The position numbers and the translations under genes are program-made. This document shows positions 49,579 through 63,988 of a stretch of 64,000 nucleotides of DNA, piece by piece. Under the pieces are notes generated by a model, which saw only the letters and a program-made list of their open reading frames with translations, was not told the DNA's origin and did not search any database. Position 1 is the first letter of the stretch; each line of letters opens with the position of its first letter. Source of the DNA: Chloroflexota bacterium (GTDB taxonomy: Bacteria > Chloroflexota > Anaerolineae > Anaerolineales > Villigracilaceae); contig JACRBN010000005.1 in NCBI GenBank assembly GCA_016213105.1, positions 124,001 to 188,000 of the forward strand, in the 5' to 3' direction.

Positions 49579-50427
49579 ATGACCAAGTCACTGCAAAAGA
49601 CCATCCTCGATACCCTGGCTTATCTCGTGCTTGTCATCGGCGCGCTGACCATGCTCGTCCCGTTCCTGTGGATGATCTCGGTCTCCTTCCGCGAACCCGC
49701 CCAGCAGTATTCGCGCAGCCTTATTCCCAACCCGTTCGTGTTCCAGAACTACGTCGACCTGTTTCGGGTGCTGCCCAATAATGCCTTCCTTGCGCTGGTT
49801 TTCAACAGCTTTAAGATCTCGACCCTGACCGTCATCGGCCAAATTCTGACCTGCGCCATGGCGGCCTTTGTCTTCGCCGTGGTCAAGTTCAAGGGACGCA
49901 ATTTCCTGTTCGCCCTGCTGCTGGCCACCCTGATGATTCCCCCACAGGTCTCGCTCATCCCGAACTTCATCATTTTCAAGTACATGCATCTGATCGGCAC
50001 GCAGTGGCCGTTGATCCTGCCCGCGTTCTGGGGCGGAGCCTTCGGCACCTTCCTGCTGCGACAATATTTCCTGACCATCCCGCGTGACCTGGTGGATGCC
50101 GCCCGCATGGACGGCGCTTCGCTCTTCGACATTTTCTGGCGCATCTACCTGCCGCTCTCGAAGCCTGCCGTGGCGGCGCTGGCGATCTTTGTCTTCAAGG
50201 ATGCCTGGAACGACCTGCTGCATCCGCTCGTGTACCTGCCCACCGACATGCAGCAAACCACTCTGACGGTTGGCCTGGCTTTCTTCCAACAGCAATTACA
50301 GCTCGGCGGCAAGTTCACCGTGTTGATGGCGGGTGCGTTCCTGTCCATCCTGCCGCTGCTGATCATCTTCTTCATCGCCCAGAAGCAATTTATCGAAGGC
50401 ATTGCGCTGAGCGGCGTGAAGAGATAA
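49579..50427 (+). CDS. Carbohydrate ABC transporter permease (MalG type)
   Basis: A 282-residue membrane protein with six segments and the EAA loop LVDAARMDGASLFDIFWRIY. It begins YLVLVIGALTMLVPFLWMIS. The ATG at 49579 follows AAGGTG by a short spacer, 9 bp after the partner permease. Together with the lipoprotein it imports a sugar, probably an oligosaccharide released by the GH114/GH4 enzymes next door. Confidence 0.94.
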   Translation: MTKSLQKTILDTLAYLVLVIGALTMLVPFLWMISVSFREPAQQYSRSLIPNPFVFQNYVDLFRVLPNNAFLALVFNSFKISTLTVIGQILTCAMAAFVFAVVKFKGRNFLFALLLATLMIPPQVSLIPNFIIFKYMHLIGTQWPLILPAFWGGAFGTFLLRQYFLTIPRDLVDAARMDGASLFDIFWRIYLPLSKPAVAALAIFVFKDAWNDLLHPLVYLPTDMQQTTLTVGLAFFQQQLQLGGKFTVLMAGAFLSILPLLIIFFIAQKQFIEGIALSGVKR

Positions 50428-50462
50428 CCCTCACCCCAACCCTCTCCCGCGGGGAGAGGGAG
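50428..50462. repeat. GC-rich palindrome upstream of GH4
   Basis: CCCTCTCCC (50440-50448), loop GCG, GGGAGAGGG (50452-50460), preceded by CCCTCACCCCAA. It starts directly after the permease stop codon. The G-rich right arm may serve as part of the ribosome site for the GH4 gene. Confidence 0.75.
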
Positions 50463-50475
50463 ATAGGAAAATGTT

Positions 50476-51807
50476 ATGACCAAAATCACCTTCATCGGCG
50501 CAGGCAGCCTGGGATTCACGGGCGAACTGGTGCGCGACATCCTGACCTTCCCGCTGCTGGAAGATGCCACCATCTCGTTGATGGACATCCACCCCGAGCG
50601 CCTCGAATGGGCCAAGCGCGGAGTGGAGAAATTGATCAAGGCGGGCAGGCGCCCCGCCAGGATCGAGGCGACGCTCGATTGCGCGGAGGCACTCAAAGGC
50701 GCGGATGTGGTCCTGACCACCATCCTGGCAGGTTCCACCGAGGTCTGGCGTCACGATATCGAGATCCCCAAAAAATACGGTGTGGACATCAACGTCGGCG
50801 ACACACGCGGGCCGAGCGGCATCTTCCGCTTCCTGCGCACCATCAACCCCATGATGGACATCGTGCGCGACATGGAAAAATATTGTCCGAACGCCGTGCT
50901 GCTCAACTACACCAACCCGATGGCCATGCTGGTCTCGGCCATTCAGAAGCAGTCCTTCATCACCACCACGGGCCTGTGTCATTCCGTGCAGGGCACGGCC
51001 ATGATGCTGGCCGAATGGATCGGCGCAAAATACGAAGACATCGATTACCTGTGCGCGGGCATCAACCATCAGGCCTGGTATCTCGAATACAAGTGGAACG
51101 GCGAGGACGCCTATCTGCTGCTTCATAAGGCCATCACCGAGCGGGCCGAGATCTACAACGCGGAACCTGTGCGCAACGAGATGTATCTGGCCATTGGCAA
51201 ATACGTCACCGAGAGCAGCGGCCACAACTCCGAGTACAACCCGTGGTTCCGCAAGCGCCCCGACCTGATCGAAAAATACTGCACGCACGGCACTGGCTGG
51301 AACCCAGGCGAATACGCCTACATCCTCAAGGAATATCAACACAACGAAGCCACCTGGAAGGATCAGGTCAAGGAGCGCCTGGCGCAGCCGCTGACCGAGC
51401 AGGACTTGCAGCGCGAGCACGAATACGCGGCCCACATCATCAATGCGCTCCTCGGCGGTGAGATGTTCAAGTTCAATGGCAACGTGCGCAATACGCATCT
51501 CATCACCAATCTGCCCGAGGATACCTGCGTCGAAGTGCCCGTCGTCGTCGACCGCGCTGGCTTTCATCCCATCCACGTTGGCGCGCTGCCCGCTGAGTGC
51601 GCTCTGCTCACGCAGCTTTCCAGCGGCATCGAGGAACTGGCCATCCAGGGCTCGCTGACGGGCGACCCCGTTGCCATCTACCGCGCCATCTGCCACGATC
51701 CGCTGACCTCCGCCGTGCTGTCGTTGGCCGAGATCAGGCAGATGACCAACGAAATGTTCGCCCAGCAAAAGGATTATCTGCCGCAGTTCAAAACGCACAA
51801 AGTCTAA
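50476..51807 (+). CDS. GH4 alpha-galactosidase-like enzyme
   Basis: A 443-residue NAD- and Mn-dependent glycosidase of family 4. The nucleotide-binding start is [16 protein letters not shown]. The metal-ligand motif is CHSV with Cys168 (GLCHSVQGT), which in family 4 is characteristic of MelA-type alpha-galactosidases. The second site is [11 protein letters not shown], and [11 protein letters not shown] follows. The family uses an oxidation-elimination mechanism in the cytoplasm. The ATG at 50476 has AGGAAAA upstream. Alpha-galactosidase-type activity fits alpha-1,4 galactose/galactosamine oligomers in this locus (inference). Confidence 0.93.
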
Positions 51808-51863
51808 GGTCTAAAGTCGAAGGCACCATGCGCAACTCGACTTTTGACGTTCGACTTTTGACC
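51800..51863. repeat. Inverted TTTGAC/GTCAAA-type low-complexity repeat over a gene start
   Basis: AAGTCTAAGGTCTAAAGTCG (51800-51819) faces TCGACTTTTGACGTTCGAC (51836-51854). The right half encodes the first residues of the GH114 lipoprotein (MRNSTFDVRLLTL). Confidence 0.6.
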
Positions 51864-52706
51864 CTGTTCATCCTCTTTCTTCTTTCAGGATGCACCACCA
51901 CTTCATCGACCCCGCTACCTGATCCCGTTTCGACGAAAGACTCAACTCTTATGCCTTCAACCTTACAACCTTCCAACCTGCAACCTGCAACGGCCTGGTG
52001 GCGTCCCAGCCTGGGACTCACCTGGCAATGGCAGATCGGTGACCTCGACATCGACACTTCCGTTCAGGCCGACGTCTACGACATTGACCTGTACGTGGAC
52101 CAGGCCATCATCGACGAACTGCACGCCCAGGGCCGCAAGGTCATCTGCTACTTGAGCGTTGGCTCCTACGAAGATTGGCGCCCCGACAAAGACCAGTTCC
52201 CTGCCGAAGTGCTTGGCAAGGATTACGACGGCTGGCCTGGAGAGAAGTGGCTCGACATCCGCCGCATCGACCTGCTGGCGCCCATCATGCTGGCGCGGCT
52301 CGACCTGTGCAAGGCCAAAGGCTTCGACGCTGTGGAGCCCGATAATATGGAGATCCACACCAACGATACAGGTTTCCCGTTGACCTACGAAGACCAATTA
52401 AAGTACGCACTCTGGCTGGCCGACGAGGCTCACAAGCGTGGACTCGCCATCGGTCAGAAGAATGCATCCGACCAGGTGGTTGACCTCGTCAACGTTTATG
52501 ATTTTGCCATCACCGAAGATTACTTCTATTACGGCGATGCCGAGTCCATGTTGCCTTACATTCAGGCGGACAAACCAGTCTTCGCCGCCGAATACACCGA
52601 CCTGCCTGGCGACTTTGCCGCATTCTGCGAGCAGTCCAAACAACTGCGCTTCAGCACCATTCTCAAGAATCGTGATCTGGATGCGTGGCTGCAAACCTGC
52701 CCCTGA
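51828..52706 (+). CDS. GH114 endo-alpha-1,4-polygalactosaminidase-family lipoprotein
   Basis: A 292-residue secreted TIM-barrel protein of family GH114 (TM1410-like). The signal peptide ends in lipobox LSGC, then a short Ser/Thr/Pro linker (STLQPSNLQP) whose DNA is repetitive. Family features are KVICYLSVGSYEDWRPDKDQ, GKDYDGWPGEKWLDIRRID, GFDAVEPDNMEIH (where many members have an Asp in place of the Glu), and GLAIGQKNASDQVVDLV. Characterised members cleave alpha-1,4-galactosamine polymers. Start at the ATG 51828-51830. It is attached outside the cell and probably feeds the ABC importer upstream. Confidence 0.85.
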   Translation: MRNSTFDVRLLTLFILFLLSGCTTTSSTPLPDPVSTKDSTLMPSTLQPSNLQPATAWWRPSLGLTWQWQIGDLDIDTSVQADVYDIDLYVDQAIIDELHAQGRKVICYLSVGSYEDWRPDKDQFPAEVLGKDYDGWPGEKWLDIRRIDLLAPIMLARLDLCKAKGFDAVEPDNMEIHTNDTGFPLTYEDQLKYALWLADEAHKRGLAIGQKNASDQVVDLVNVYDFAITEDYFYYGDAESMLPYIQADKPVFAAEYTDLPGDFAAFCEQSKQLRFSTILKNRDLDAWLQTCP

Positions 52707-52716
52707 TAGAGTCAAA

Positions 52717-52761
52717 AGTCAAAGGTCGAAAGTCAGGACCTTCGACTTTTGACCTTTGACT
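52717..52761. repeat. Palindrome AGTCAAAGGTCGAAAGTC type between GH114 and aldolase genes
   Basis: AGTCAAAGGTCGAAAGTC (52717-52734) faces GACTTTTGACCTTTGACT (52744-52761) with one mismatch. Related words recur at 51800-51863 and 53730-53752. It fills the intergenic space. Confidence 0.7.
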
Positions 52762-52782
52762 TCTCTCTCTGGAACCTGATAC

Positions 52783-53730
52783 ATGAAACCTATCACCATC
52801 GGAAAACTGCGCGGATTGCAACAATGCACCTCTCCGCGCGGAACGTTTACCTGCCTCGCGCTCGACCATCGTCAGAACCTGCGCAAGGCCAATCCTGCCT
52901 TCGTGGACGATGCCGAACTGAGCCGCTTTAAAGTGGACGTCACTGCTGCGCTTGCGGCTGAGTCCACCGCTGTGCTATTCGACCCCGAGGTCTCTGCCGC
53001 GCAAGCGATTGCGGCGGGCGTCCTCCCTGGCAGGACCGCCTTCGTCGTGGCGGTCGAGTCCACGGGCTATACAGGCGATGCAAATGCGCGCCGCGCGCAG
53101 ATCATCCCTGGCTGGACTGTGGAGAAGGCCAAGCGCATGGGCGCCAGTATGATCAAGCTGCTGGTCTACTATCATCCTGACTCTCCCACCGCTGCCGAGG
53201 CCGAAGCCTTCACAAAGGATATCGCTGCCGAGTGTATCCAACACGACCTTGGCCTGATGCTTGAACCGCTGTCCTATTCGCTGACCGATGCCAAGCTCAC
53301 CAGCGGGGAGAAACGTTACGTTGTTGTTGAAACTGCGCGCCGCCTGACACCCATCCCAGGCGTGGATCTGCTCAAGGCTGAACTTCCGCTCGATACGGCC
53401 GACACCGACCCTGCTCAGCTCTTCGCCACCTGTGCCGAAGTCAGCGCTGCTTCGGTCACGCCGTGGATATTGCTTTCCGCCGCTGTCTCGTTCGAGACCT
53501 ATCAGCGCCAGATCATCGCGGCCTGTCAGGCAGGCGCGAGCGGCATCGCCGTGGGACGCGCTGTCTGGCAGGAAGCCGTCAGCATGCCCGCCGAGGCGCG
53601 CGTTGATTTCTTGCGCACCACCGCGAAGGAACGCCTGATCCGCCTCAACGCGTTGTGCACCGCGCTCGCCAAACCCGTCAGCGATTTCTACACCGCCGAC
53701 GCGCCCTTTGACTGGTATAAGACTTACTGA
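52783..53730 (+). CDS. LacD-like tagatose-1,6-bisphosphate aldolase family protein
   Basis: A 315-residue class I aldolase. Features are CLALDHRQNLRK near the N-terminus, MIKLLVYYHPD, LMLEPLSYSL, and the Schiff-base lysine Lys198 in GVDLLKAELP, which matches the LacD catalytic position. The expected reaction is tagatose 1,6-bisphosphate to glyceraldehyde 3-phosphate plus dihydroxyacetone phosphate. Start at the ATG 52783, with a weak GGAACC site. It lies directly before two PfkB kinases, one of which resembles tagatose-6-phosphate kinase. Related aldolases for sulfo-sugars exist, so the substrate is inferred from context. Confidence 0.85.
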   Translation: MKPITIGKLRGLQQCTSPRGTFTCLALDHRQNLRKANPAFVDDAELSRFKVDVTAALAAESTAVLFDPEVSAAQAIAAGVLPGRTAFVVAVESTGYTGDANARRAQIIPGWTVEKAKRMGASMIKLLVYYHPDSPTAAEAEAFTKDIAAECIQHDLGLMLEPLSYSLTDAKLTSGEKRYVVVETARRLTPIPGVDLLKAELPLDTADTDPAQLFATCAEVSAASVTPWILLSAAVSFETYQRQIIAACQAGASGIAVGRAVWQEAVSMPAEARVDFLRTTAKERLIRLNALCTALAKPVSDFYTADAPFDWYKTY

Positions 53731-53760
53731 CCTTTGACCTTCAACCTTTGACCCCTGGAC
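53730..53760. repeat. Short direct repeats of CCTTTGACC-type words
   Basis: ACCTTTGACCTTCAACCTTTG and following CCCTGGAC form the spacer before the next ATG. Same words as in the palindromes at 51800 and 52717. Confidence 0.5.
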
Positions 53761-53762
53761 TC

Positions 53763-54683
53763 ATGACCCCCACACCTTTCGACCTTCTCGTTGCAGGCGA
53801 GATCAACCCTGACCTGATTCTCGCGGGTGATGTCGCGCCCGCTTTTGGTCAGGTCGAGAAGCTGGTTGATTCGGCGGCGCTGACCATCGGCTCGTCGTCG
53901 GTCATCTTTGCATGCGGCGCGGCGCGGCTTGGGCTCAAGGTCGCGTTCATCGGCAAATGCGGCGACGATATTTTCGGCCGTTTCATGCTCGAACAAATGC
54001 AGGCACATCAAGTGGATATCGGGAACGTGATCGTTGTCGAAGGTGGAGCGACGGGCTTGAGCGTGATCCTCAACCGCGGCGTGGACCGCGCGATTCTGAC
54101 TCACCTCGGGCTGGTCGCCGATCTCCAGGCCGAAGATGTCGCTGACAGTTTGTTGAGCCAGGCGCATCACCTGCACGTCGCGTCCTATTTTCTGCAAACG
54201 AAATTACAAGCAGGTCTGCCTCATCTCTTCGAGCGTGCCCATTCCCTGGGGCTGACTACTTCACTCGATACCAATTATGATCCTTCTGAGCAATGGATTG
54301 GATTCGATGAACTGCTCTCTGTCACGAATGTCTTCCTCCCTAACGAGCGTGAAGCTATGTCGCTCACAGGCATGTATGATGTCCACGAAGCGGCCGCCAG
54401 GCTAGGGTCCAGGGTGGAGGTGGCGGCGCTCAAGCTTGGGGCGGATGGGGCGCTGGGAGTCAGGTCAGCTCATAGCGTGCGAGTCGACTCGATCCCCGTG
54501 AAGGTTGTGGACACAGTGGGGGCAGGCGATAGCTTCGATGCGGGTTTCATCTATGGATATTTGCAAGACTGGACATTGGAGAAGTCGTTGGGGCTGGGCA
54601 CAGTATGCGGCGCGCTCTCGACGCGCAAAGCAGGGGGGACCGCCGCGCAGCCCACGCTGGCAGAAGCGATGACGTACTTATGA
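53763..54683 (+). CDS. PfkB-family carbohydrate kinase
   Basis: A 306-residue ribokinase-fold sugar kinase. The first signature is GSSSVIFACGAARLGLKVAF; the catalytic/anion-hole motif is DTVGAGDSFDAGFIYG. The start is the ATG at 53763 (MTPTPFDLLV); a TTG five codons upstream is an alternative. It overlaps the next kinase by ATGA. In this operon a galactosamine kinase role (AgaK-like) is plausible. Confidence 0.9.
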   Translation: MTPTPFDLLVAGEINPDLILAGDVAPAFGQVEKLVDSAALTIGSSSVIFACGAARLGLKVAFIGKCGDDIFGRFMLEQMQAHQVDIGNVIVVEGGATGLSVILNRGVDRAILTHLGLVADLQAEDVADSLLSQAHHLHVASYFLQTKLQAGLPHLFERAHSLGLTTSLDTNYDPSEQWIGFDELLSVTNVFLPNEREAMSLTGMYDVHEAAARLGSRVEVAALKLGADGALGVRSAHSVRVDSIPVKVVDTVGAGDSFDAGFIYGYLQDWTLEKSLGLGTVCGALSTRKAGGTAAQPTLAEAMTYL

Positions 54684-55618
54684 TCCTTTGTGTGATTCCC
54701 AATCCTGCCATTGACAGAACCCTGCATGTGGAAGAATTACGCGTGGGCGAGGTACATCGCGCCACGCGTGTATTGTCTGCGGCGGGCGGCAAGGGGATCA
54801 ACGTGGCGCGCGCCGTGCACACATTGGGCGGAGATCCTTTTTGCCTGGGGTTGATCGGCGGGCATGCTGGAGCTTTGCTGGCAGATTTGGTGGCACAGGA
54901 AGGCCTGTCTGCGCATTGGACAAGGATGAAAGGCGAGACCCGCACCTGCGTGATCGTGACGCAATCCGATCACGATGCAACGCTTATAAACGAGCCTGGG
55001 ACAGAGGTGAGCCTGGAGGAATGCAGCGCATTCCTTGCAGATGTGGAACAGTTTTCGACTCTGGCGGAACTGATTTGTATCAGTGGAAGCCTGCCGCCAG
55101 GATTCCCTTTGAGTCTGTTCGAGTCTTTGTTGAAGAGGCTGACCGCGCGCGGTAAGTCCGTTTGGGTGGATACCAGTAAACAGGCGTTGAAAATTGCGCT
55201 GGGCGTGCCAGGCCTCAATGTCAAGGTGAATGCCGCCGAATTGGGTGATGCGCTTGGTGTGGAGATTTCCAACGCGGAACAGGCGATGGATGCGGCTGGC
55301 GAATTGCGCAAAGCTGGGCTAGAGCAAGTCGTAATTACGCTGGGAAAAGATGGCGCGATCTGGATATCTGCGGCGGGAAGCTGGAAGGCATCATCGCCGA
55401 AGATTCAGCCTGTCAGCAGCATAGGCAGCGGGGATGCGTTTCTGGGCGGCTTGGCTGTGGCATTGACGGCTGGACTGCCTTCCGAAACTGCCCTGCGTCA
55501 GGCGGTGGCGGCAGGCGCAGCGAATGCGCTTACGTTTGGTGGTGGATTGTTTTCGCGTCAGGATTTTCAAGCTATCGTTCAGAATACGAGTTCCATCATA
55601 TTTCCAAGTCATCCTTGA
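54680..55618 (+). CDS. 1-phosphofructokinase/tagatose-6-phosphate kinase family (LacC-like)
   Basis: A 312-residue PfkB enzyme of the FruK/LacC type. It opens ILCVIPNPAIDRTLHVEEL and has the substrate-site AAGGKGINVARAVHTLGG and the anion hole IGSGDAFLGGLAVALT. This subgroup phosphorylates ketose phosphates such as fructose 1-phosphate or tagatose 6-phosphate. The ATG at 54680 overlaps the previous stop. With the LacD-like aldolase it completes a tagatose route. Confidence 0.9.
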   Translation: MILCVIPNPAIDRTLHVEELRVGEVHRATRVLSAAGGKGINVARAVHTLGGDPFCLGLIGGHAGALLADLVAQEGLSAHWTRMKGETRTCVIVTQSDHDATLINEPGTEVSLEECSAFLADVEQFSTLAELICISGSLPPGFPLSLFESLLKRLTARGKSVWVDTSKQALKIALGVPGLNVKVNAAELGDALGVEISNAEQAMDAAGELRKAGLEQVVITLGKDGAIWISAAGSWKASSPKIQPVSSIGSGDAFLGGLAVALTAGLPSETALRQAVAAGAANALTFGGGLFSRQDFQAIVQNTSSIIFPSHP

Positions 55619-56040: not shown

Positions 56041-57009
56041 ATGGATACTCTCTGGAAGTCTCGAAAAGTTGTGATCGTTGGAGCGGGTGCAGTTGGCTCG
56101 ACCTTTGCATATGCCCTGGCGCAGAAAGGACTGGCTGATCAAATTTGTTTGATCGATGCCAACCCCGATTTTGCCGAAGGACAGGCGCTCGATCTGGCGC
56201 ACGGACTGCCTTTTTACCCGTCTGTGCAGATCCGCGCAGGCGATAACCGCGATTATGCTGACGCGCAGGTGATCGTCATTACAGCTGGAGCAAAGCAGGC
56301 TGTGGGCGAATCGCGCTTGAACTTGTTGCAGAAAAACGCCGCAATCATCGAAGGTATTGTTGATCAGATCGTGGCTCAAAAATCCCAGGCGGTTTTATTG
56401 GTAGCCAGCAATCCAGTGGATATTCTGACCCATGTGGCCCTAAAACGCTCCGGCTGGACCAAGAACCGTATCATCGGCTCGGGAACAGTGCTCGACAGTG
56501 CCCGCTTCCGTTATCTCATCAGCCAGCATTGCAAAGTGGACGTGGGCAATGTCCACGCCTATATTTTGGGAGAGCACGGCGACAGCGAAGTGGCGGCCTG
56601 GTCAATGACGCATGTGGCGGGTGTGCCGATAGACAATTATTGTCCGCAGTGCGGCAACTGCCGCGACTGGCACGGCGAACGCGACCGCATTGTCCGCGAG
56701 GTAAAGGATTCAGCTTATCACATCATCAATTACAAAGGTTCCACTTACTTTGGGATCGGCATGTCACTGGCGCGTATCGTTGGAACAATTTTACAGGACC
56801 AGAACAGCGTGTTGACGGTTTCCACTTATCTTGAAGGCGAATATGGCCTGAATGACGTATGCCTGAGTATTCCCTGTGTCGTTGGGCAGGGCGGAGTCAA
56901 ACGGATTGTGGAGACGGAACTATACCCCGAGGAACAGTCTGCCCTGGAACGTTCAGCGCACATACTGAAAGATGGCCTGACCGGTCTGAAGCAAGTGGAA
57001 AAAGCATAA
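56041..57009 (+). CDS. ldh: L-lactate dehydrogenase
   Basis: A 322-residue NAD-dependent enzyme reducing pyruvate to L-lactate. The dinucleotide fold is VIVGAGAVGSTFAYALAQKG. Substrate and catalytic residues appear in AGAKQAVGESRLNLLQKN, NPVDILTHVALK and the active-site histidine motif GEHGDSEVAAWSMTHVAGVP. Length is normal. It regenerates NAD+ in fermentation, next to an oxidase gene that would also dispose of reducing power. Malate dehydrogenase is less likely because of the active-site loop. Confidence 0.92.
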   Translation: MDTLWKSRKVVIVGAGAVGSTFAYALAQKGLADQICLIDANPDFAEGQALDLAHGLPFYPSVQIRAGDNRDYADAQVIVITAGAKQAVGESRLNLLQKNAAIIEGIVDQIVAQKSQAVLLVASNPVDILTHVALKRSGWTKNRIIGSGTVLDSARFRYLISQHCKVDVGNVHAYILGEHGDSEVAAWSMTHVAGVPIDNYCPQCGNCRDWHGERDRIVREVKDSAYHIINYKGSTYFGIGMSLARIVGTILQDQNSVLTVSTYLEGEYGLNDVCLSIPCVVGQGGVKRIVETELYPEEQSALERSAHILKDGLTGLKQVEKA

Positions 57010-57046
57010 ATATATTTCCAGATGGGTATGTTATTCCCCATATCAT

Positions 57047-57074
57047 CTTTGAACAAATAGCCATTAAATATAAT
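57047..57074 (+). promoter_or_regulatory. Candidate promoter of the alternative oxidase gene
   Basis: CTTTGA (57047-57052), 16-bp spacer, TATAAT (57069-57074). AAAGGAG follows 6 bp or so before the ATG at 57105. Confidence 0.5.
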
Positions 57075-57104
57075 TAAGCAAGTTAAGCTCAAAGGAGCAT
57101 CCCA

Positions 57105-57719
57105 ATGTCTACTGAAATGCCGTTGAAACAACATCACCTCCCTAATGGTTTTTCCGATCGATTGGCGCTGTCTTTCACCAAATCTGCGCGCTTCTTCGCT
57201 GATACTTTTTTTGCCCGCCGTTACGGTCACCGCGCGGTTGTGCTGGAAACGGTAGCCGCGGTTCCGGGCATGGTTGGAGGCGCTCTGCAGCATCTGCGCG
57301 CCTTGCGTCGCATGGAAAACGATAATGGCTGGATTCACACCTTGTTGGATGAAGCCGAAAACGAGCGGATGCACTTGATGACCTTCATTAACATCGCCCA
57401 CCCGACACGGCTGGAGCGTCTGATCATCCTGCTGGCCCAGGGCGTTTTCTTCAACGGCTTTTTCCTGCTCTATCTTTTATCGCCAGGAACTGCCCACCGC
57501 GTCGTTGGCTACTTTGAAGAGGAAGCCGTTCATAGCTACACAGAGTACCTCCATGATGTCGACAGTGGAGCAATCCCCAATGTCCCTGCGCCCAAAATTG
57601 CGATTGACTATTGGAAACTGGCCCCGGATGCGCGCTTGCGAGAGGTGATCATCGCCGTCCGTGAAGATGAGCGCCATCACCGCGATGTTAATCACGGATT
57701 CGCCAACGAGCTGGCTTGA
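57105..57719 (+). CDS. aox: Alternative oxidase (ubiquinol/menaquinol oxidase, AOX)
   Basis: A 204-residue di-iron membrane-bound quinol oxidase that passes electrons to oxygen without pumping protons. All six metal ligands are seen: Glu48 ([14 protein letters not shown]), Glu87 and His90 (NERMHLM), Glu139 (EEEAVHSYT), Glu189 and His192 ([12 protein letters not shown]). The hydrophobic segment [20 protein letters not shown] matches the membrane-surface helix. The N-terminus is short, as expected for bacterial forms without a transit peptide. It has its own promoter and strong AAAGGAG site. AOX is known mainly from mitochondria and some Proteobacteria. Confidence 0.95.
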
Positions 57720-57834
57720 TGCCAAAAACATGCACGCATTTCCCAACGATTTTCTTCGCTCTAAATTGCTGCCTGTTTCACCAGGAAGCTCTTATGACAA
57801 CTTTTTGCCGTTACCCTATTTATAGGAGTTGAAC

Positions 57835-58746
57835 ATGAAAATCGTCAGGCGTGTTTTATTGGGGTTGCTGTTTGTTATGGTTTTAGCGGTTGTGTTGTTG
57901 GTCGGCTCGGTTGCCGTGGATTACGCCTTGGGCGCTGGGCGTATTGACCGAATTTCCAACACCACCATTCCTGGAATAAACGGCACACCCGAAGTAAGAG
58001 CTTACGTTGCAAAGCCTGAGGGCGCTGGCCCCTTTCCGGTTGTGATAATGATTCATGAATTCTTTGGCTTGAATGAATCCATTGTTGGCAAGGCGGAAGG
58101 GCTGACCGCCGAAGGTTACCTGGTTGTTGCCCCCGACACGTTTCGCGGCTCCACAACCGCCTGGATTCCCCGCGCGATTTATCAGGTCAGCACCACCAAG
58201 CCTGAACAGGTCAACGCCGACCTGGATACAGTCTACGCCTGGCTGGAAACCCAACCGACTGTCGATAACTCGCGGATTGCGATTATCGGGTTTTGTTATG
58301 GTGGGCGTACTGCGCTTGCCTACAGCCTGCATAACAACCAGCTGGCGGCCACCGTTGTTTTCTACGGTTCGCCCGAGACTGACCCCGCTGTGTTGAAAAA
58401 CCTGCCAGGCCCCGTTTTGGGAATTTTTGGCGGAGCCGATCAATCCATCCCGTTAGAGAACGTGACAGACTTCGAGACGGCCTTGACCCAGGCCGGGGTC
58501 CAGCATGAAATCACGATCTATCCTGATCAGCCGCATGCTTTTGTCCAGGATATGGCGGGTATTCGCGCTGGTGGCGCTCAGGGACAGGCTTGGGCGCAAA
58601 TGCTCAATTTTTTGGATGTCCACCTCAACCAGTCCGACGCGGGACAAACCGGCCACTCAATCGCATATCTCCCTGGGTTTGATTGGCAGTATTATCTGAT
58701 GTTAGCCTACGAACATGCTTTTGGCCCAGCCAGTCATATGCACTGA
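57835..58746 (+). CDS. Dienelactone hydrolase-family alpha/beta hydrolase, membrane-anchored
   Basis: A 303-residue hydrolase with an N-terminal membrane segment (about residues 7-29, LLGLLFVMVLAVVLLVGSVA). The nucleophile is the Cys in IIGFCYGGRTAL, and the catalytic Asp and His lie in GIFGGADQ and DQPHAFVQD. The start is the ATG at 57835 with AGGAG upstream; an in-frame TTG two codons earlier is less likely. The fold faces the outside or is released. Substrate unknown; dienelactone is only the family name. Confidence 0.9.
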   Translation: MKIVRRVLLGLLFVMVLAVVLLVGSVAVDYALGAGRIDRISNTTIPGINGTPEVRAYVAKPEGAGPFPVVIMIHEFFGLNESIVGKAEGLTAEGYLVVAPDTFRGSTTAWIPRAIYQVSTTKPEQVNADLDTVYAWLETQPTVDNSRIAIIGFCYGGRTALAYSLHNNQLAATVVFYGSPETDPAVLKNLPGPVLGIFGGADQSIPLENVTDFETALTQAGVQHEITIYPDQPHAFVQDMAGIRAGGAQGQAWAQMLNFLDVHLNQSDAGQTGHSIAYLPGFDWQYYLMLAYEHAFGPASHMH

Positions 58747-58870
58747 TTAGCGACCTGGTCCGCTGAGGGCTGGATTTATTCGCCTGATTGCACGTAATGA
58801 ATTCTATTGGCGAAAGTCATGCGTACAAAGAGCAAGAATGTAGGATAACAAGAGGAAAAGAGAGACATAA

Positions 58871-59440
58871 ATGACCGAAAGCCCAAAGTATTCCGTATCC
58901 AGGAAACAAAACGAAATTGAACTTCGGCAATATCCAGGTTATATCCAGGCCGAGGTGACTGTCGAAGATAAGAACTATAAATCGGCGATTGAAAAAGGGT
59001 TCAATCTTCTGGCGGGCTATATTTTCGGCAATAATATTTCGCGTCAGAAAATCGAGATGACCACGCCTGTTCAGGCTTCTCGATCCGAAAAAATTGCCAT
59101 GACCACACCGGTGACCGTCAGTGGCGAATCGAGCTTCACCGTGGCTTTCATTATGCCTGCGGAATATACCCTGGAAACGCTGCCGCAACCGAAAGATAGC
59201 CGTGTTCACTTTACGTGCCTCCCAGCCCGGACGATGGCCGCCATTCGTTTTTCCGGGTATTTCCAAAAAGAAACAATCGAGAAAAACAAGCAGTGTCTCC
59301 GTCATTGGCTGGAGGAACAGGGACTGGAAACCGAAGGTGATTTTATCGTGGCTGGTTACAATCCCCCCTGGGTGCCGGGTTTTTTGGCGCGCAATGAAGT
59401 TCTGATTCAGCTCAAAACTGAACTCCAGGAGAAAAGATGA
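58871..59440 (+). CDS. SOUL-family haem-binding protein
   Basis: A 189-residue cytoplasmic SOUL protein (NEIELRQYPGYIQAEVTVED, IEMTTPVQASRSEKIAMTTP, NPPWVPGFLARNEVLIQL). The family binds haem or other tetrapyrroles. Starts at the ATG 58871 with AAGAGG upstream and overlaps the next gene by ATGA, so translation is coupled. Its role in bacteria is poorly known; placement beside a heliorhodopsin and a TspO-type protein suggests a light/tetrapyrrole link. Confidence 0.93.
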   Translation: MTESPKYSVSRKQNEIELRQYPGYIQAEVTVEDKNYKSAIEKGFNLLAGYIFGNNISRQKIEMTTPVQASRSEKIAMTTPVTVSGESSFTVAFIMPAEYTLETLPQPKDSRVHFTCLPARTMAAIRFSGYFQKETIEKNKQCLRHWLEEQGLETEGDFIVAGYNPPWVPGFLARNEVLIQLKTELQEKR

Positions 59441-59838
59441 TGCGATATCTTAAACTTTACCTGGTCTCATTGCTGGCCTTCCTCGCGATTGACATGCTTT
59501 GGCTGGGACTGGTGGCGCGCTCATTTTATCAACAGCGACTCGGTTTCATCATGGCCCCCAGCGTCAATTGGTTTGCGGCAGCCATTTTCTATCTGCTCTT
59601 TCTCGCGGGAATCTTGTTCTTTGTGGTCGTTCCCGGGTTGGAAAGCGGCTCACTCAAAACCACCCTGCTGCGGGCGGCCCTGTTCGGGCTGATCACCTAT
59701 GCCACCTACGATTTAACCAATCTCGCCACCCTGAAAGACTGGCCTGTGCTACTCAGCGTGGTGGACATGCTTTGGGGAACATTCTTGAGCGTTTCCGTCA
59801 GTGCTATAGGCTTTATTGCGGGCAAACGCATCAATTGA
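59437..59838 (+). CDS. DUF2177 family membrane protein
   Basis: A 133-residue protein with four hydrophobic segments, starting YLKLYLVSLLAFLAIDMLWL and including the family segment GLITYATYDLTNLATLKDWP. Function unknown. In Proteobacteria this family occurs among light- and stress-inducible genes next to photolyases. The gene overlaps the SOUL gene and is followed by the heliorhodopsin gene. Confidence 0.88.
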   Translation: MMRYLKLYLVSLLAFLAIDMLWLGLVARSFYQQRLGFIMAPSVNWFAAAIFYLLFLAGILFFVVVPGLESGSLKTTLLRAALFGLITYATYDLTNLATLKDWPVLLSVVDMLWGTFLSVSVSAIGFIAGKRIN

Positions 59839-59864
59839 GACTATAATAAATAATTAACTATACC
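59835..59864 (+). promoter_or_regulatory. Candidate promoter of the heliorhodopsin gene
   Basis: TTGAGA (59835-59840), 18-bp spacer, TATACC (59859-59864). The leader of about 65 nt ends with AAAGGAG before the ATG at 59936. Two overlapping ATGs occur; the one at 59931 meets a stop after two codons. Confidence 0.4.
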
Positions 59865-59935
59865 CTGCAGCGATTTCAAACACTCAGGCGAATGCTGAGA
59901 TTGACCCGTTCATTCGCACCAAAGGAGATCATGAA

Positions 59936-60748
59936 ATGAAAACCACAGGTACCAAAGCAGATAGCTCGACGGACGCAATGGAACGCAAGTTTACCGGTCT
60001 GCGGCGTTTCAACGCCATCATGGGCTTCCTGCATCTCGTTCAGGGTATTTTCATGATCGCGGTCAGCCGGGCGACCACCTACCCCATCTTCACCAATTAC
60101 CTGAGTTTTGATGTGGCCACCCGCTCCTTGAAACCAGGCACCGCACTTTTCTATGAACTTCCTTTTGGCCCAGCGGTTGCCATGTTCTTGCTGATCTCGG
60201 CTGTGGCGCACTTCTACCTGGCGACGATTGGCTACGGACGCTATGTGGAAAACCTGAAAAAAGGCATGAATCCGGTGCGCTTCTATGAATATGCTCTGAG
60301 TTCTTCGCTGATGATCGTGCTGATCGGCATGTTGATTGGGCTTTGGGATCTGGGTGCAATCATCCTGATCTTCACGCTCAACGCCACGATGAACCTGTTT
60401 GGCATCATGATGGAACTGCATAACCAGCACACCAAAAAGACGGACTGGACAGCCTTTATCTATGGCTGCATTGCTGGGTTCATCCCGTGGGTGGTAATCA
60501 TGCTGTACTTCGTGGGTGCGGTAAATTCTGGTGATGGCAGTGCCAAGCCGCCTGCTTTTGTGTACGCCATCGTTCCCACACTGTTTGTCTTCTTTAACAT
60601 TTTCGCCATCAACATGGTTTTACAATATAAAAAGATTGGTCCCTGGAAGGATTACCTGTTTGGGGAACGCGCCTACATCATCCTGAGCTTATTAGCCAAA
60701 ACCGTGCTGTGCTGGCTGATCTGGACCGGCACCCTGGCCCCGGTCTAA
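59936..60748 (+). CDS. Heliorhodopsin
   Basis: A 270-residue seven-helix retinal protein of the heliorhodopsin family. The retinal lysine is Lys255 in TM7 (ILSLLAKTVLCW). The Schiff-base counterion is Glu118 in RFYEYALSSSLMIV. The pocket histidines are His33 (GFLHLVQG) and His92 (AHFYLATIGYG), as in characterised heliorhodopsins. A ~30-residue cytosolic N-terminus (Lys/Arg-rich) fits the inverted topology of the family. It does not pump ions; the function is thought to be light sensing or signalling. The ATG at 59936 has AAAGGAG eight bases upstream. It sits among SOUL, DUF2177, flavin-related and TspO genes. No rhodopsin pump or retinal-synthesis gene is in the window. Confidence 0.96.
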   Translation: MKTTGTKADSSTDAMERKFTGLRRFNAIMGFLHLVQGIFMIAVSRATTYPIFTNYLSFDVATRSLKPGTALFYELPFGPAVAMFLLISAVAHFYLATIGYGRYVENLKKGMNPVRFYEYALSSSLMIVLIGMLIGLWDLGAIILIFTLNATMNLFGIMMELHNQHTKKTDWTAFIYGCIAGFIPWVVIMLYFVGAVNSGDGSAKPPAFVYAIVPTLFVFFNIFAINMVLQYKKIGPWKDYLFGERAYIILSLLAKTVLCWLIWTGTLAPV

Positions 60749-60782
60749 GCAAAACGTCCAACAAACCATCCTCAGCCTCAGC

Positions 60783-60820
60783 GTGGATTGGCTCCATCCA
60801 AAATGAATGATCCAATCCAC
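60783..60820 (+). terminator. Hairpin after the heliorhodopsin gene
   Basis: GTGGATTGG (60783-60791) pairs perfectly with CCAATCCAC (60812-60820). There is no T tract, so termination is uncertain. It lies between the heliorhodopsin stop and the FMN reductase start. Confidence 0.5.
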
Positions 60821-60849
60821 ACTGGGGTTCGAAATCCGGAGTAATTCTG

Positions 60850-61413
60850 ATGACAACTTCCAATCGGCTCCACGTGCTGGGCATCTCCGGAAGTCTGCGT
60901 CAAGGCTCGTATAACTCGGCCCTCTTACGAACGGCCACTTAGCTAATACCTCCCGGAATGACACTCGAAATCTTTGACCTCGCGCCCCTGCCAATTTTCA
61001 ACGCAGATTATGAGAAGCCGTTTCCTGAAGCCGTGCTTGAGTTCCGCACCCGGCTGGCGCAGGCCAATGCCCTGCTCATCGCCACCCCTGAATATAACAG
61101 TTCGATCAGCGGCGCTCTGAAGAATGCCATCGACTGGGCCTCGCGCTCGCCCCAGCAGCCTTTGAACGGCAAGCCGGTTGCCATGATTGGCGCCAGCACA
61201 GGCAACTCTGGTACGCTCAGAGCCCAATTGCATCTTCGCCAGATTTTGACCCATGTGGGCGCATTGCCGCTCGGCAAGCCTGAGGTACTGGTTGCGCGCG
61301 CCGAGCAAGTTTTCGACGCTGACGGGAACCTGATAGACGAAGCGGCGCGCGGCTTCCTGCGCTATTTACTCACAGCGCTGGCCGGATGGATACAGCGAGT
61401 CTCCCCGGTCTGA
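60850..61413 (+). pseudogene. NADPH-dependent FMN reductase with an in-frame stop
   Basis: Reading from the ATG at 60850 gives a flavodoxin-fold reductase start (LHVLGISGSLRQGSYNSALL) and then TAG at 60940-60942. The same frame continues as LIPPGMTLEIFDLAPLPIFN and TPEYNSSISGALKNAIDWAS to the stop at 61413. The homology runs through the TAG, where a Glu codon (GAG) would be expected, so this is a single nonsense change. The ATG at 60958 lacks a ribosome site and would omit the FMN phosphate loop. It may be a recent pseudogene or a sequencing error. Confidence 0.85.
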
Positions 61414-61424
61414 GGTGGTAAAAC

Positions 61425-62447
61425 ATGCAAACCAGAAAAGTTGACATCGTGGTGATCGGCGCCGGCATGGCTGGCCTGAGCTTTGCGCGAACCATGCAAC
61501 AGCACGGGCGCGAGGTTTTGATTCTGGAACGCAGTCGCGCCGTTGGCGGACGCTGCGCCACCTGGCGGCACGCGGACCTGGCCATGGATTACGGCGTGCC
61601 TTTTTTACATGCCCGCTCGCCGCTCTTCTGGCAGACTGTTGATGAGCTGCTGGGGGCGGACGTTTTGTCTGGTTGGCCCCAGCGCGTGCAGGGCAACGGG
61701 CCTACCTGCCAGCCGCGCGCATTAGACCCGGGTGTGCGCCATGCCGCTTTGCGCGGCGGGCTCAACACGCTGGCCAAGAAGCTGGCTGAGGGGATTGAGA
61801 TTTTGCGCGAGTCAGAAGTGACCAACCTCAAAACTCTGCAGGGCAGTCTTCAACTGAGCGGCGCGAATGTCTCACTCAGCACCCAAACGCTCGTCCTAGC
61901 CGGGGCAAATGCTGAAAGCCTGCGTCTGTTACAAGCTTCGGATTTCGGCCCGTCCACGGCTGGAGCGATGGCCCTCTTCGGCCTGGCCCCAACCCTTCCA
62001 ACACTGTCCCTGCTCGCCTGCTACGAGACCCCGCCGACTCAGCCGGACTGGGAACTGCTTTTGCCAGAAACTTCAGCATCCATTCAACTGATCAGCAATG
62101 AAAGCAGTAAGAACGCGGCTGGGCATAAACTCTGTTTGTGCATTCAGGCGCGGCCCGCCTGGAGTCGTCAGCGCCTCAATTCATCCGCCGAGGAGTGGGC
62201 CTGTGACCTCTTGCGCGAGACAGCCATGCTTCTCGGTGACTGGATGATGAAGCCAGACTGGCAGCGACCGCACCGCTGGCTTGAGTCGCGCCTCGATAGC
62301 GCCAGTCGCCTGCGCGGACCGCTCCTCTATACCCTCGCTGGTTGCCAACTGGGAATCATCGGTGAATATTTCAACCCCGCCGGTGGACTGGAAGGGGCCT
62401 TCCTTTCGGGGCGCCACCTGGCCGACTTGCTCAAGGAGACAACATGA
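61425..62447 (+). CDS. FAD-dependent oxidoreductase (renalase/amine-oxidase-like)
   Basis: A 340-residue flavoprotein. The FAD-binding start is VVIGAGMAGLSFARTMQQHG, then RAVGGRCATWRHADLAMDYG, typical of renalase-like proteins. The C-terminal FAD contact is GIIGEYFNPAGGLEGAFLSG. The substrate is unknown. The gene is 12 bp after the FMN reductase and overlaps ribA by ATGA. Confidence 0.88.
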   Translation: MQTRKVDIVVIGAGMAGLSFARTMQQHGREVLILERSRAVGGRCATWRHADLAMDYGVPFLHARSPLFWQTVDELLGADVLSGWPQRVQGNGPTCQPRALDPGVRHAALRGGLNTLAKKLAEGIEILRESEVTNLKTLQGSLQLSGANVSLSTQTLVLAGANAESLRLLQASDFGPSTAGAMALFGLAPTLPTLSLLACYETPPTQPDWELLLPETSASIQLISNESSKNAAGHKLCLCIQARPAWSRQRLNSSAEEWACDLLRETAMLLGDWMMKPDWQRPHRWLESRLDSASRLRGPLLYTLAGCQLGIIGEYFNPAGGLEGAFLSGRHLADLLKETT

Positions 62448-63190
62448 AAAAACAAGTTTCACAAAAATTGCTCGACCTGGTCGAAAAAGACAAAGAACAT
62501 AGTTGTGCGGGCTACGGTCCTGACCACGTCTGTGTCCGCGCGGCCGGCGTTGCAGACCTGCCGACCGAGTTCGGCCACTTCAACATCGTCGCTTTTTGGA
62601 ACAATCGTGACGAGAAGGATCATATTGCGATTGTGCATGGTGAAGTGGTCGGTCTGGAAAATGTCCCCGTACGCCTGCATTCTGAATGCCTGACCGGCGA
62701 TGCGCTCGGCTCACTGCGCTGTGACTGCCGTGACCAACTGAAGGTCTCGCTGCAACGCATTGCCGAGGAACCTTTGGGGATTGTGCTCTATCTGCGTCAG
62801 GAGGGACGCGGTATCGGCCTGCTCAATAAAATTCGCGCCTACCAATTGCAAGATGGCGGACTCGATACCGTTGAGGCTAATCTCGCGCTTGGTTTTCGTG
62901 ACGACGAACGCGACTTCGCCGTGGCCGCGCACATGTTGCACTCATTGGGGATTAAGAGCGTGCGCCTGATGACCAATAACCCCAAGAAAGTGGACGAACT
63001 CCGCCAATACCAAATCAATGTGGTCGAACGTTTGCCGCACATCATTCCGCCCAACGAACATAACCGTTTCTATCTCGAGACCAAATCGCGCCGCTCGGGC
63101 CATTGGATTGATTTCGAGGGCCATCCGCACCTGCCGGAGCAGGCCGATGGTGTCCAGGTGGCCGGAATGGCCTCCACAGACGCTGAATAA
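62444..63190 (+). CDS. ribA: GTP cyclohydrolase II
   Basis: A 248-residue enzyme of riboflavin synthesis, without the RibB domain. Zinc ligands are in HSECLTGDALGSLRCDCRDQ; the catalytic region is LYLRQEGRGIGLLNKIRAYQ. The C-terminal RLPHIIPPNEHNRFYLETK is typical. Translationally coupled to the flavoprotein gene. It may raise flavin supply for neighbouring flavoproteins or photoreceptors. The N-terminal ~60 residues are longer than in E. coli RibA. Confidence 0.93.
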   Translation: MKKQVSQKLLDLVEKDKEHSCAGYGPDHVCVRAAGVADLPTEFGHFNIVAFWNNRDEKDHIAIVHGEVVGLENVPVRLHSECLTGDALGSLRCDCRDQLKVSLQRIAEEPLGIVLYLRQEGRGIGLLNKIRAYQLQDGGLDTVEANLALGFRDDERDFAVAAHMLHSLGIKSVRLMTNNPKKVDELRQYQINVVERLPHIIPPNEHNRFYLETKSRRSGHWIDFEGHPHLPEQADGVQVAGMASTDAE

Positions 63191-63223
63191 TGGTCAGACA
63201 CTTTCCCTGTGAGTGAGGAGAAT

Positions 63224-63988
63224 ATGAAAGATCAATTGCGACGGATTGCTGTCATCGTGACCATCCTGGCCACCCTGGTGGTCAACGGGCTGGCAAACAC
63301 CCTGCCTCTTAACGGACTGAACACCGGTCAGATTTCCGACCGCTTCAATGTCTATTTCGTCCCGGCGGGGTACGTGTTTTCCATCTGGGGCTTGATCTAC
63401 CTCGCATTGATAGCCTTTGCCGTTTTCCAAGCCTTACCTTCCCAACGAGAGAATCCCCGCCTGCGCGCCACGGGCTGGTGGATTTCCCTGGGCGGTCTGG
63501 CCAACAGTGTCTGGATTTTCTTTTGGCACTATGAGCAGTTCCCGCTGACGCTGATCGCCATGCTGGTCTTGCTTGGCACGCTGATCGTCACTTACCTGCG
63601 CCTGGGCATCGGACGAACCACGGCCCCCGCGGCTGAGACCTGGTTTGCGCGCCTGCCCTTCAGCATCTATCTCGGCTGGATCACGGTCGCAACCGTGGCC
63701 AATGTCACTTCCTTGCTGGACTACCTGAACTGGAACGGGTTCGGAATTGCCCCCGAAACCTGGATGGGCATTGTGCTGGCGACCGTGCTGGTGATTGCGG
63801 TGCTGATGAATTTCACCCGCCGCGACATCGCTTACACGGCGGTGATTCTGTGGGCGCTGGCTGGGATTTCAGTTAGGCACGCCGCCGTTCCATCGGTAGC
63901 CATCCCCACCTGGATTACCTTTGGGTTGGTTGCGCTGACTCTCATTGCAGCGTTTTTCCTGCGACGGACAGAAAAGACTGTCAGATAA
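63224..63988 (+). CDS. TspO/MBR-family tryptophan-rich membrane protein
   Basis: A 254-residue membrane protein with about seven hydrophobic segments (AVIVTILATLVVNGLANTLP; FVPAGYVFSIWGLIYLALIA; YLGWITVATVANVTSLLDYL). The FxPxGYVFxIWGxIY segment places it in the TspO/MBR-related group, longer than classical TspO. TspO proteins bind porphyrins and are linked to light and oxidative stress. The start may be the ATG at 63224 (GAGGAG close upstream) or the GTG at 63209. Confidence 0.85.
   Translation: MKDQLRRIAVIVTILATLVVNGLANTLPLNGLNTGQISDRFNVYFVPAGYVFSIWGLIYLALIAFAVFQALPSQRENPRLRATGWWISLGGLANSVWIFFWHYEQFPLTLIAMLVLLGTLIVTYLRLGIGRTTAPAAETWFARLPFSIYLGWITVATVANVTSLLDYLNWNGFGIAPETWMGIVLATVLVIAVLMNFTRRDIAYTAVILWALAGISVRHAAVPSVAIPTWITFGLVALTLIAAFFLRRTEKTVR

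Follow-up and report, generated by a model that had tools for sequence, protein, structure and literature searches.

Protein partners have been published for some heliorhodopsins (HeRs), namely glutamine synthetase and photolyase (PMC9529153, PMC9769723) and an ABC transporter (PMC11109279). The original prediction for the gene described here, which stated that HeR partners are mostly unknown, therefore holds only in part. It also stated that HeRs fit no known pump role, which is too absolute because the HeR of a giant virus transports protons (PMC9448325). The genes that accompany HeR have been described as well. DUF2177 is one of ten frequent operon neighbors of HeR (PMC11109279), carotenoid and photolyase genes lie on either side of zinc-finger HeRs (Znf-HeRs), other HeRs have been linked to oxidative stress through neighboring glutaredoxin/peroxidase genes (PMC8612252), and the cultured SAR202 strain JH545, which is inhibited in growth by light, has two HeRs that follow photolyase at a distance of one gene (PMC10444878). 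Links of HeR to DUF2177, DegV, MerR regulators and photoprotection genes are thus already in print, as is the photoprotection idea itself.

Regarding the B12-dependent photoreceptor CarH, no paper in the literature searched contained both heliorhodopsin and CarH as whole words; subscription papers lie outside that search, and a prior mention is possible. The parts considered of two papers on heliorhodopsin and cobalamin (PMC7110647, PMC11245477) draw no link to CarH, and heliorhodopsin and singlet oxygen were mentioned together in the literature searched only via a reference title.

A full-length heliorhodopsin and its host

Within the window, which is the whole 64-kb stretch of DNA that was analyzed (G000:C2:124001-188000), the open reading frame at 59936-60748 (+ strand) starts with ATG, ends with TAA and encodes a protein of 270 aa; inspection by eye revealed an upstream AAAGGAG. 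The product had been predicted to be a heliorhodopsin, and a Pfam scan of the window reading frame matched the Heliorhodopsin family PF18761 with an E-value of 6.2e-98 and 327 bits (cut-off 26.7), with residues 22-267 aligned to positions 1-242 of 242, i.e., the full profile. The HeR profile matched none of 14 control genomes, and one HeR copy was found in the genome that contains the window. Six distinct solved sequences matched the window HeR, all of which are heliorhodopsins, and the best match was PDB 6is6 (TaHeR; 1e-76).

The four residues named in the original prediction, His33, His92, Glu118 and Lys255, are all present at those positions. To examine their conservation, we used an alignment of the window HeR with 25 of the 53 Chloroflexota loci (26 rows) and another with 39 of the 80 loci from named records (40 rows). 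Glu118, the counterion in helix C, and Lys255, the Schiff-base residue in helix G, are invariant in both (26/26 and 40/40), and the column of Glu118 holds Asp in the E108D mutant structure 7clj. His33 and His92 are invariant in the 40-row alignment, whereas their conservation in the Chloroflexota alignment does not reach 90%, which indicates that the retinal-pocket histidines are not universal in the HeR family. The window HeR probably binds retinal.

An AlphaFold model of the window HeR, generated with the 39 HeRs of named records as additional input, reached a pLDDT of 90.4 and features seven helices, the first two of which (A and B) are joined by a long loop that forms two strands (48-59, 64-76). 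In a Foldseek search, the top ten PDB matches were all HeRs, the best of which showed a TM-score of 0.89 at 1.6 A (7clj/6is6), whereas other rhodopsins among the matches listed showed TM-scores of 0.44-0.64. The closest structures are those of TaHeR from a Thermoplasmatales archaeon (6is6, 7clj, 7u55), with TM-scores of 0.87-0.89, deviations of 1.6-1.8 A, 48-49% identity and the same counterion and Schiff-base residues. Heliorhodopsin 48C12 (6su3, 6su4, 6uh3) is more distant than TaHeR, with TM-scores of 0.83-0.85 and 40-42% identity. TaHeR differs in its archaeal source, and for both proteins the likeness concerns the protein and not its gene context. The charged N-terminus that had been predicted is real, and the Lys/Arg residues of the modeled loops number 13 on the side expected to face the cytosol, compared with 4 on the opposite, outer side, a distribution that in the model fits an inverted topology with a cytosolic N-terminus. 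Based on the profile, the alignment and the fold, we conclude that 59936-60748 encodes a genuine, full-length heliorhodopsin.

HeR was detected in 56 of the 400 Chloroflexota genomes searched and is common in this phylum, so that the window HeR adds one more member to an established family. The assignment of the host to Chloroflexota agrees with its relatives: named records with HeRs that are 79-88% identical carry the labels Aquidulcis, Longilinea, Anaerolineaceae, Anaerolineae, Anaerolineales, Caldilineales and Chloroflexi, and the closest HeR on a tree of 133 HeRs, at 94% identity, is from a genome of the same family. HeRs with 72-75% identity also occur in records labeled as other phyla (Trueperaceae, Spirochaetia and Caldisericum; L098, L101, L106, L108), and these labels may reflect mis-binning or gene transfer.

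The gene cluster that contains heliorhodopsin

The genes that we followed across 56041-63988 are all on the + strand and encode, in order, an LDH-type dehydrogenase, an alternative oxidase (AOX), a dienelactone-hydrolase-type alpha/beta hydrolase (DLH), a SOUL protein, a DUF2177 protein, HeR, an FMN reductase, an FAD-dependent oxidoreductase, GTP cyclohydrolase II and a TspO-like protein. Immediately upstream of HeR, from which it is separated by 97 bp, is the gene for a predicted DUF2177 membrane protein (59437-59838; PF09945, 8.6e-47), which overlaps by 4 bp with the gene for a SOUL haem-binding family protein (58871-59440; PF04832, 4e-52). The DLH gene lies farther upstream (57829-58746; PF01738, 2.4e-47), and its product has by eye a hydrophobic N-terminus. 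Homologues of this hydrolase occur at two other loci: upstream of SOUL-HeR in L053, and next to DUF2177-HeR in L087, where the hydrolase gene is on the other strand.

Downstream of HeR, after a gap of 101 bp, is a frame for an NADPH-dependent FMN reductase (60850-61413), which is open except at codon 31, where one TAG interrupts it in frame (60940-60942); the part after the stop matches PF03358 (6e-35). A recent mutation and an assembly error are indistinguishable here as the source of this TAG. The next gene encodes an FAD-dependent oxidoreductase of the NAD_binding_8/Amino_oxidase type (61425-62447; PF13450, 7.1e-16; PF01593, 2.4e-15) and overlaps by 4 bp with the gene for GTP cyclohydrolase II of the riboflavin pathway (62444-63190; PF00925, 6.4e-67). 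The last gene of the window encodes a TspO/MBR-like membrane protein (63209-63988), for which the match to PF03073 (2.5e-4, 21.3 bits) is below the cut-off of 24. Beyond the window end, a DUF4345 gene begins 23 bp after the TspO-like gene and is followed by genes for DegV and a ferritin-like protein.

The AOX gene (57105-57719; PF01786, 8.7e-84) is nearby and is a candidate module member at most. It is an odd gene for Chloroflexota: among 231 genomes of this phylum, the genome that contains the window was the only one with a match over the cut-off, with one sub-cut-off fragment elsewhere. The gene lies on the same 398-kb contig as HeR and adjoins the LDH-type dehydrogenase. No near homologue of AOX, the FMN reductase, the FAD enzyme or GTP cyclohydrolase II was found in the other HeR loci compared. 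Elsewhere in the window, at about 49579-55618, the translations suggest by eye a row of genes for a sugar ABC permease, a GH4-like enzyme, an aldolase and two PfkB-type kinases, an arrangement that resembles a cluster for the catabolism of sugars or amino sugars.

CarH-type regulators and heliorhodopsin

In eight loci, a pattern search identified a regulator with a MerR signature no more than five genes from HeR, and L118 contains a ninth. Seven of the nine, with L074 and L121 left out, were scanned with Pfam, and all seven have a MerR domain and both B12-binding domains. A guess at CarH from protein length in three loci (L081, L124, L125) was wrong and was replaced by the pattern search and Pfam. 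The genome that contains the window also encodes a CarH/LitR-type regulator (L196:8144-9508), in which Pfam detected a MerR DNA-binding domain and two B12-binding domains (PF13411, PF00376, PF02607, PF02310). This protein and all nine HeR-linked regulators share W-x9-EH and an aligned His, the motif and axial His of adenosylcobalamin photoreceptors, and the own-genome protein aligns with Thermus CarH at these positions. From their sequences, the own-genome and HeR-linked regulators are predicted to be CarH-type B12-photoreceptor repressors.

In three loci (L116, L118, L119), on which the gene order CarH-HeR-DegV rests, CarH immediately precedes HeR on the same strand and DegV immediately follows it. 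Farther along these runs, DUF1295 is present in all three and photolyase in two. With x for unnamed genes, the order in L118 is CarH-HeR-DegV-x-DUF1295-DUF4345-x-AhpC-SDR-MFS-x-photolyase, and in L119 it is CarH-HeR-DegV-x-DUF1295, followed later by SDR, MFS and photolyase. The genome that contains the window has an HeR-free run on contig C1 (L196:5459-18001) with the order crtB | crtI-CarH-DegV-DUF1295-DUF4345-AhpC-SDR-PPOX-MFS-photolyase-GNAT-P450, for which ten genes were scanned with Pfam and PPOX, MFS, GNAT and crtI (Amino_oxidase in Pfam) were named by eye. Its HeR and this CarH cluster are on different contigs. A similar HeR-free run is present in G005, in which HeR is elsewhere. In G072, a genome of the same family, CarH-like, crtI, crtB, DUF1295, photolyase, TspO-like and HeR genes lie within about 20 kb (C1:25392-44871), and lycopene cyclase is matched 2.4 kb past HeR. 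For the difference between runs with and without HeR, its insertion and its loss are indistinguishable.

The promoter of crtI in the genome that contains the window and the CarH-HeR promoter of L116 share the -35/-10 string TTGACA-N3-ACTGNACA-N5-TATAAT exactly. The published CarH repeat (PMC8156234) falls in this string twice, once in full and once as a 4-of-5 copy. Among the loci compared, no other match within two mismatches was found except in a duplicate stretch of the same genome (L198), a uniqueness that is only descriptive because the pattern was derived from these two sites. We also searched 17 regions for tandem arrays of the published 11-bp repeat and compared the scores with those of 200 shuffles. 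The crtB|crtI region and L116 each scored 12/15 (3/200 shuffles each), and further scores were 13 for L119 (2/200), 12 for L118 (3/200), 10 for L078 (12/200) and 10 for L080 (23/200). Arrays before the SOUL, HeR, DLH, AOX and FMN reductase genes scored no better than shuffles. The array before LDH, where the run in the window begins, scored 12/15 (6/200 shuffles); four arrays with this score were found across the whole 64-kb window, compared with 1.8 expected. These searches thus yielded one weak candidate, the array before LDH, and no convincing CarH operator at the HeR cluster of the window.

Recurrent neighbors and the possible role of heliorhodopsin

We propose, as a reading that we consider evenly balanced, that HeR is a membrane light sensor or regulator in a photo-oxidative-stress module of Anaerolineales-type Chloroflexota and not an ion pump; it is the neighboring genes that place HeR in such a module. 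Retinal bound at Lys255 would be isomerized by light, and the resulting change would be read by a partner on the cytosolic side. In relatives with a CarH-HeR run, light would break the adenosylcobalamin of CarH, which would free the promoter and lead to the joint production of HeR and the other products of the run. HeR would in turn provide proteins, or the lipid and porphyrin metabolism, of the module with a second light signal from the membrane. In the genome that contains the window, HeR would be part of a second, related cluster with SOUL, DUF2177, TspO-like, DUF4345 and DegV proteins. Light induction, the function of HeR and the neighbor on which it would act are all points that we infer. 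A more specific circuit with two tiers, in which CarH switches on the HeR run in light and HeR, using outside retinal, reports light from the membrane to proteins of lipid, porphyrin and singlet-oxygen defence (DegV, DUF1295, DUF2177 and SOUL), is possible but doubtful.

To determine which genes recur near HeR, we assembled 53 loci from 52 Chloroflexota genomes, 80 from named genomes and 2 from viral contigs, which resulted in 133 loci after the removal of duplicates (contigs L109 and L110). Four of the 56 Chloroflexota genomes with HeR contained fragments only and were omitted, and two of the six HeR loci found on viral contigs entered the set. The Python gene caller was incomplete, and HeR was forced in four loci. 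Using home-built profiles, we compared 698 genes within three genes of HeR to 1215 genes farther away by Fisher tests that treat related genomes as independent. Near and far from HeR, the counts were 12 and 0 for DUF2177 (p 5e-6), 12 (one weak, 3e-5) and 3 for DUF1295 (p 7e-4), 14 and 5 for DegV (p 0.001) and 5 and 0 for SOUL (p 0.006). The DegV gene of the genome that contains the window, six genes from HeR, was counted as far, and the DUF2177 gene of G250 (L075), 1.6 kb from HeR, was absent from this count. Photolyase was not enriched next to HeR in the 133 loci (4 near, 5 far). When counted again with different profiles and with four genes as the near limit, near and far values were 12/0 for DUF2177, 16/3 for DegV, 11/3 for DUF1295, 5/0 for SOUL and 8/1 for CarH-like regulators (p 0.012, with related genomes again treated as independent); in this count DUF4345, crtI, DLH, TspO, AhpC, MFS, SDR, PPOX and crtB were not enriched near HeR at p 0.05. 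Proteins with DUF1475 directly adjoin HeR in two loci (L087:8022-8465, L121:9643-9984).

The recurrence of close neighbors would also be expected if HeR were a direct enzyme regulator that binds the product of one neighbor (DUF2177, alpha/beta hydrolase, SOUL or DegV) and alters its activity upon illumination, a reading that we regard as somewhat unlikely. Among the 86 same-strand neighbors of HeR within 120 bp, nine encode DUF2177, eight DegV, three MerR-B12 regulators and two DUF1295. The interactions with glutamine synthetase, photolyase and an ABC transporter provide a published precedent, and the DUF2177 and alpha/beta hydrolase groups share operons with each other (PMC11109279). However, the partners vary by locus, with several families in the same place, a pattern that suits a common regulon equally well.

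It is distinctly less probable that the neighborhood lacks function, with HeR hitch-hiking in an often-rearranged region and the enrichment arising from shared descent. The rows are related, the Fisher tests ignore kinship, and none of the five marker families is near HeR in 100 of the 133 HeRs, some of which are on short contigs. However, the label of linkage to DUF2177 changes nine times for 12 rows on the tree of 133 HeRs, which indicates that the HeR-DUF2177 link is not one inherited block, and it reaches a record labeled Dojkabacteria (L146). SOUL genes occur on the strand opposite to HeR, at a distance of two or three genes, in two archaeal-labeled records (L131 and L154; Euryarchaeota and Methanomassiliicoccus).

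The distribution of these families in 400 Chloroflexota genomes was also determined. DUF2177 is encoded in 26 of them (25 over the cut-off), 13 of which also have HeR, and in 10 of these 13 the two genes lie within 2 kb of each other, compared with about 0.03 expected by position; in G005, DUF2177 is alone, 1.6 Mb from HeR. SOUL is encoded in 18 genomes, of which seven have HeR, with SOUL within 2 kb of it in three. Around DUF2177 or SOUL genes away from HeR, we took 20 loci and tested ten neighbor proteins with Pfam, which identified four as DUF1295, two as photolyases, one as PNPOx and one as HIT, with two lacking a match. In HeR-free Chloroflexota genomes, DUF2177 is adjoined, directly or one small frame off, by DUF1295 (L174, L175, L177, L180) and by DNA photolyase (L176, L177), which account for six of the ten proteins. 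The genes for SOUL, DUF2177 and DUF1295 all appear in a table of SAK1-dependent, singlet-oxygen-induced Chlamydomonas genes (PMC4067076), a table from which we claim no enrichment.

The reading of HeR as a light sensor is weakened by the 100 HeRs that lack nearby markers and by the CarH operator search in the window, as well as by an actinobacterial HeR transcript that stays fairly constant in light and increases in darkness (PMC8591293). A light-driven transporter of protons or other ions, like the giant-virus V2HeR3, is an improbable alternative to this reading: transport has been reported for a viral member of the same family (PMC9448325), but viral HeRs, for which no operon partners were found in the part of the study considered, are set apart from prokaryotic HeRs (PMC11109279). 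By eye, the cluster also encodes no obvious user of an ion gradient.

Concerning the supply of retinal, BCD/Blh was detected in none of the 52 HeR genomes, including that of the window, which is a weak negative since no control matched either. An RPE65-type oxygenase is encoded in one of the 52 genomes, which is not that of the window, and 15 of the 52, including that of the window, have a phytoene/squalene synthase match. No full-length match to Pfam Lycopene_cycl was found in the genome that contains the window, a result that concerns this cyclase type only. This genome, in which no known retinal pathway was found, may not make retinal, so outside retinal or another route would be needed. 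That need and the enrichment of DegV near HeR would suit a role in which HeR and the fatty-acid-binding DegV capture or protect retinal or other polyenes without signaling, but the conservation of Glu118 and Lys255 is consistent with a functional photoreceptor, DegV is not known to bind retinoids, and we consider this role very unlikely.

Although heliorhodopsin structures have been solved, most of these proteins have no established role, and the CarH-HeR runs make that role directly testable because runs of the same kind exist in HeR-bearing and HeR-free forms, a promoter string is held in common, and three partner families are linked to singlet-oxygen stress elsewhere. The gene set described here is a more pointed clue to HeR function than the earlier general idea. 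Among published HeR neighbor groups, DUF2177, alpha/beta hydrolase, MerR family and photolyase are like those found here, and DUF2177 adjoins HeR in the window too (PMC11109279). The MerR group may well be the CarH-type regulators of our loci, and the HeR-CarH link may therefore be partly known under another name. That study differs in that, in the sections considered, the MerR group is not called CarH or B12-binding, and SOUL and DUF1295 are not mentioned. It also reports that none of the nine remaining groups occurs in an operon with the MerR group, a statement that does not extend to the DegV and DUF1295 of the runs described here. DegV and Blh are named as HeR neighbors in another paper, which cites its reference 4 (PMC9385722), and DegV is near HeR here too. 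The HeRs flanked by photoprotection and oxidative-stress genes (PMC8612252) share the same general functional idea; they concern another protein variant and other partner genes, and CarH, MerR and B12 are absent from the text.

The SAK1 response of Chlamydomonas (PMC4067076) belongs to a eukaryote, depends on another regulator and, in the part considered, includes no heliorhodopsin, yet it resembles the loci described here in that SOUL, DUF2177 and DUF1295 are all strongly induced. The CarH/LitR regulons (PMC8156234, PMC9758184) differ in that no heliorhodopsin is named in the sections considered, and the HeR of the window is on another contig than the CarH cluster. They are alike in that the genome that contains the window clusters crtB, crtI-type, CarH-type and photolyase genes, and its relatives have HeR inside such a run.
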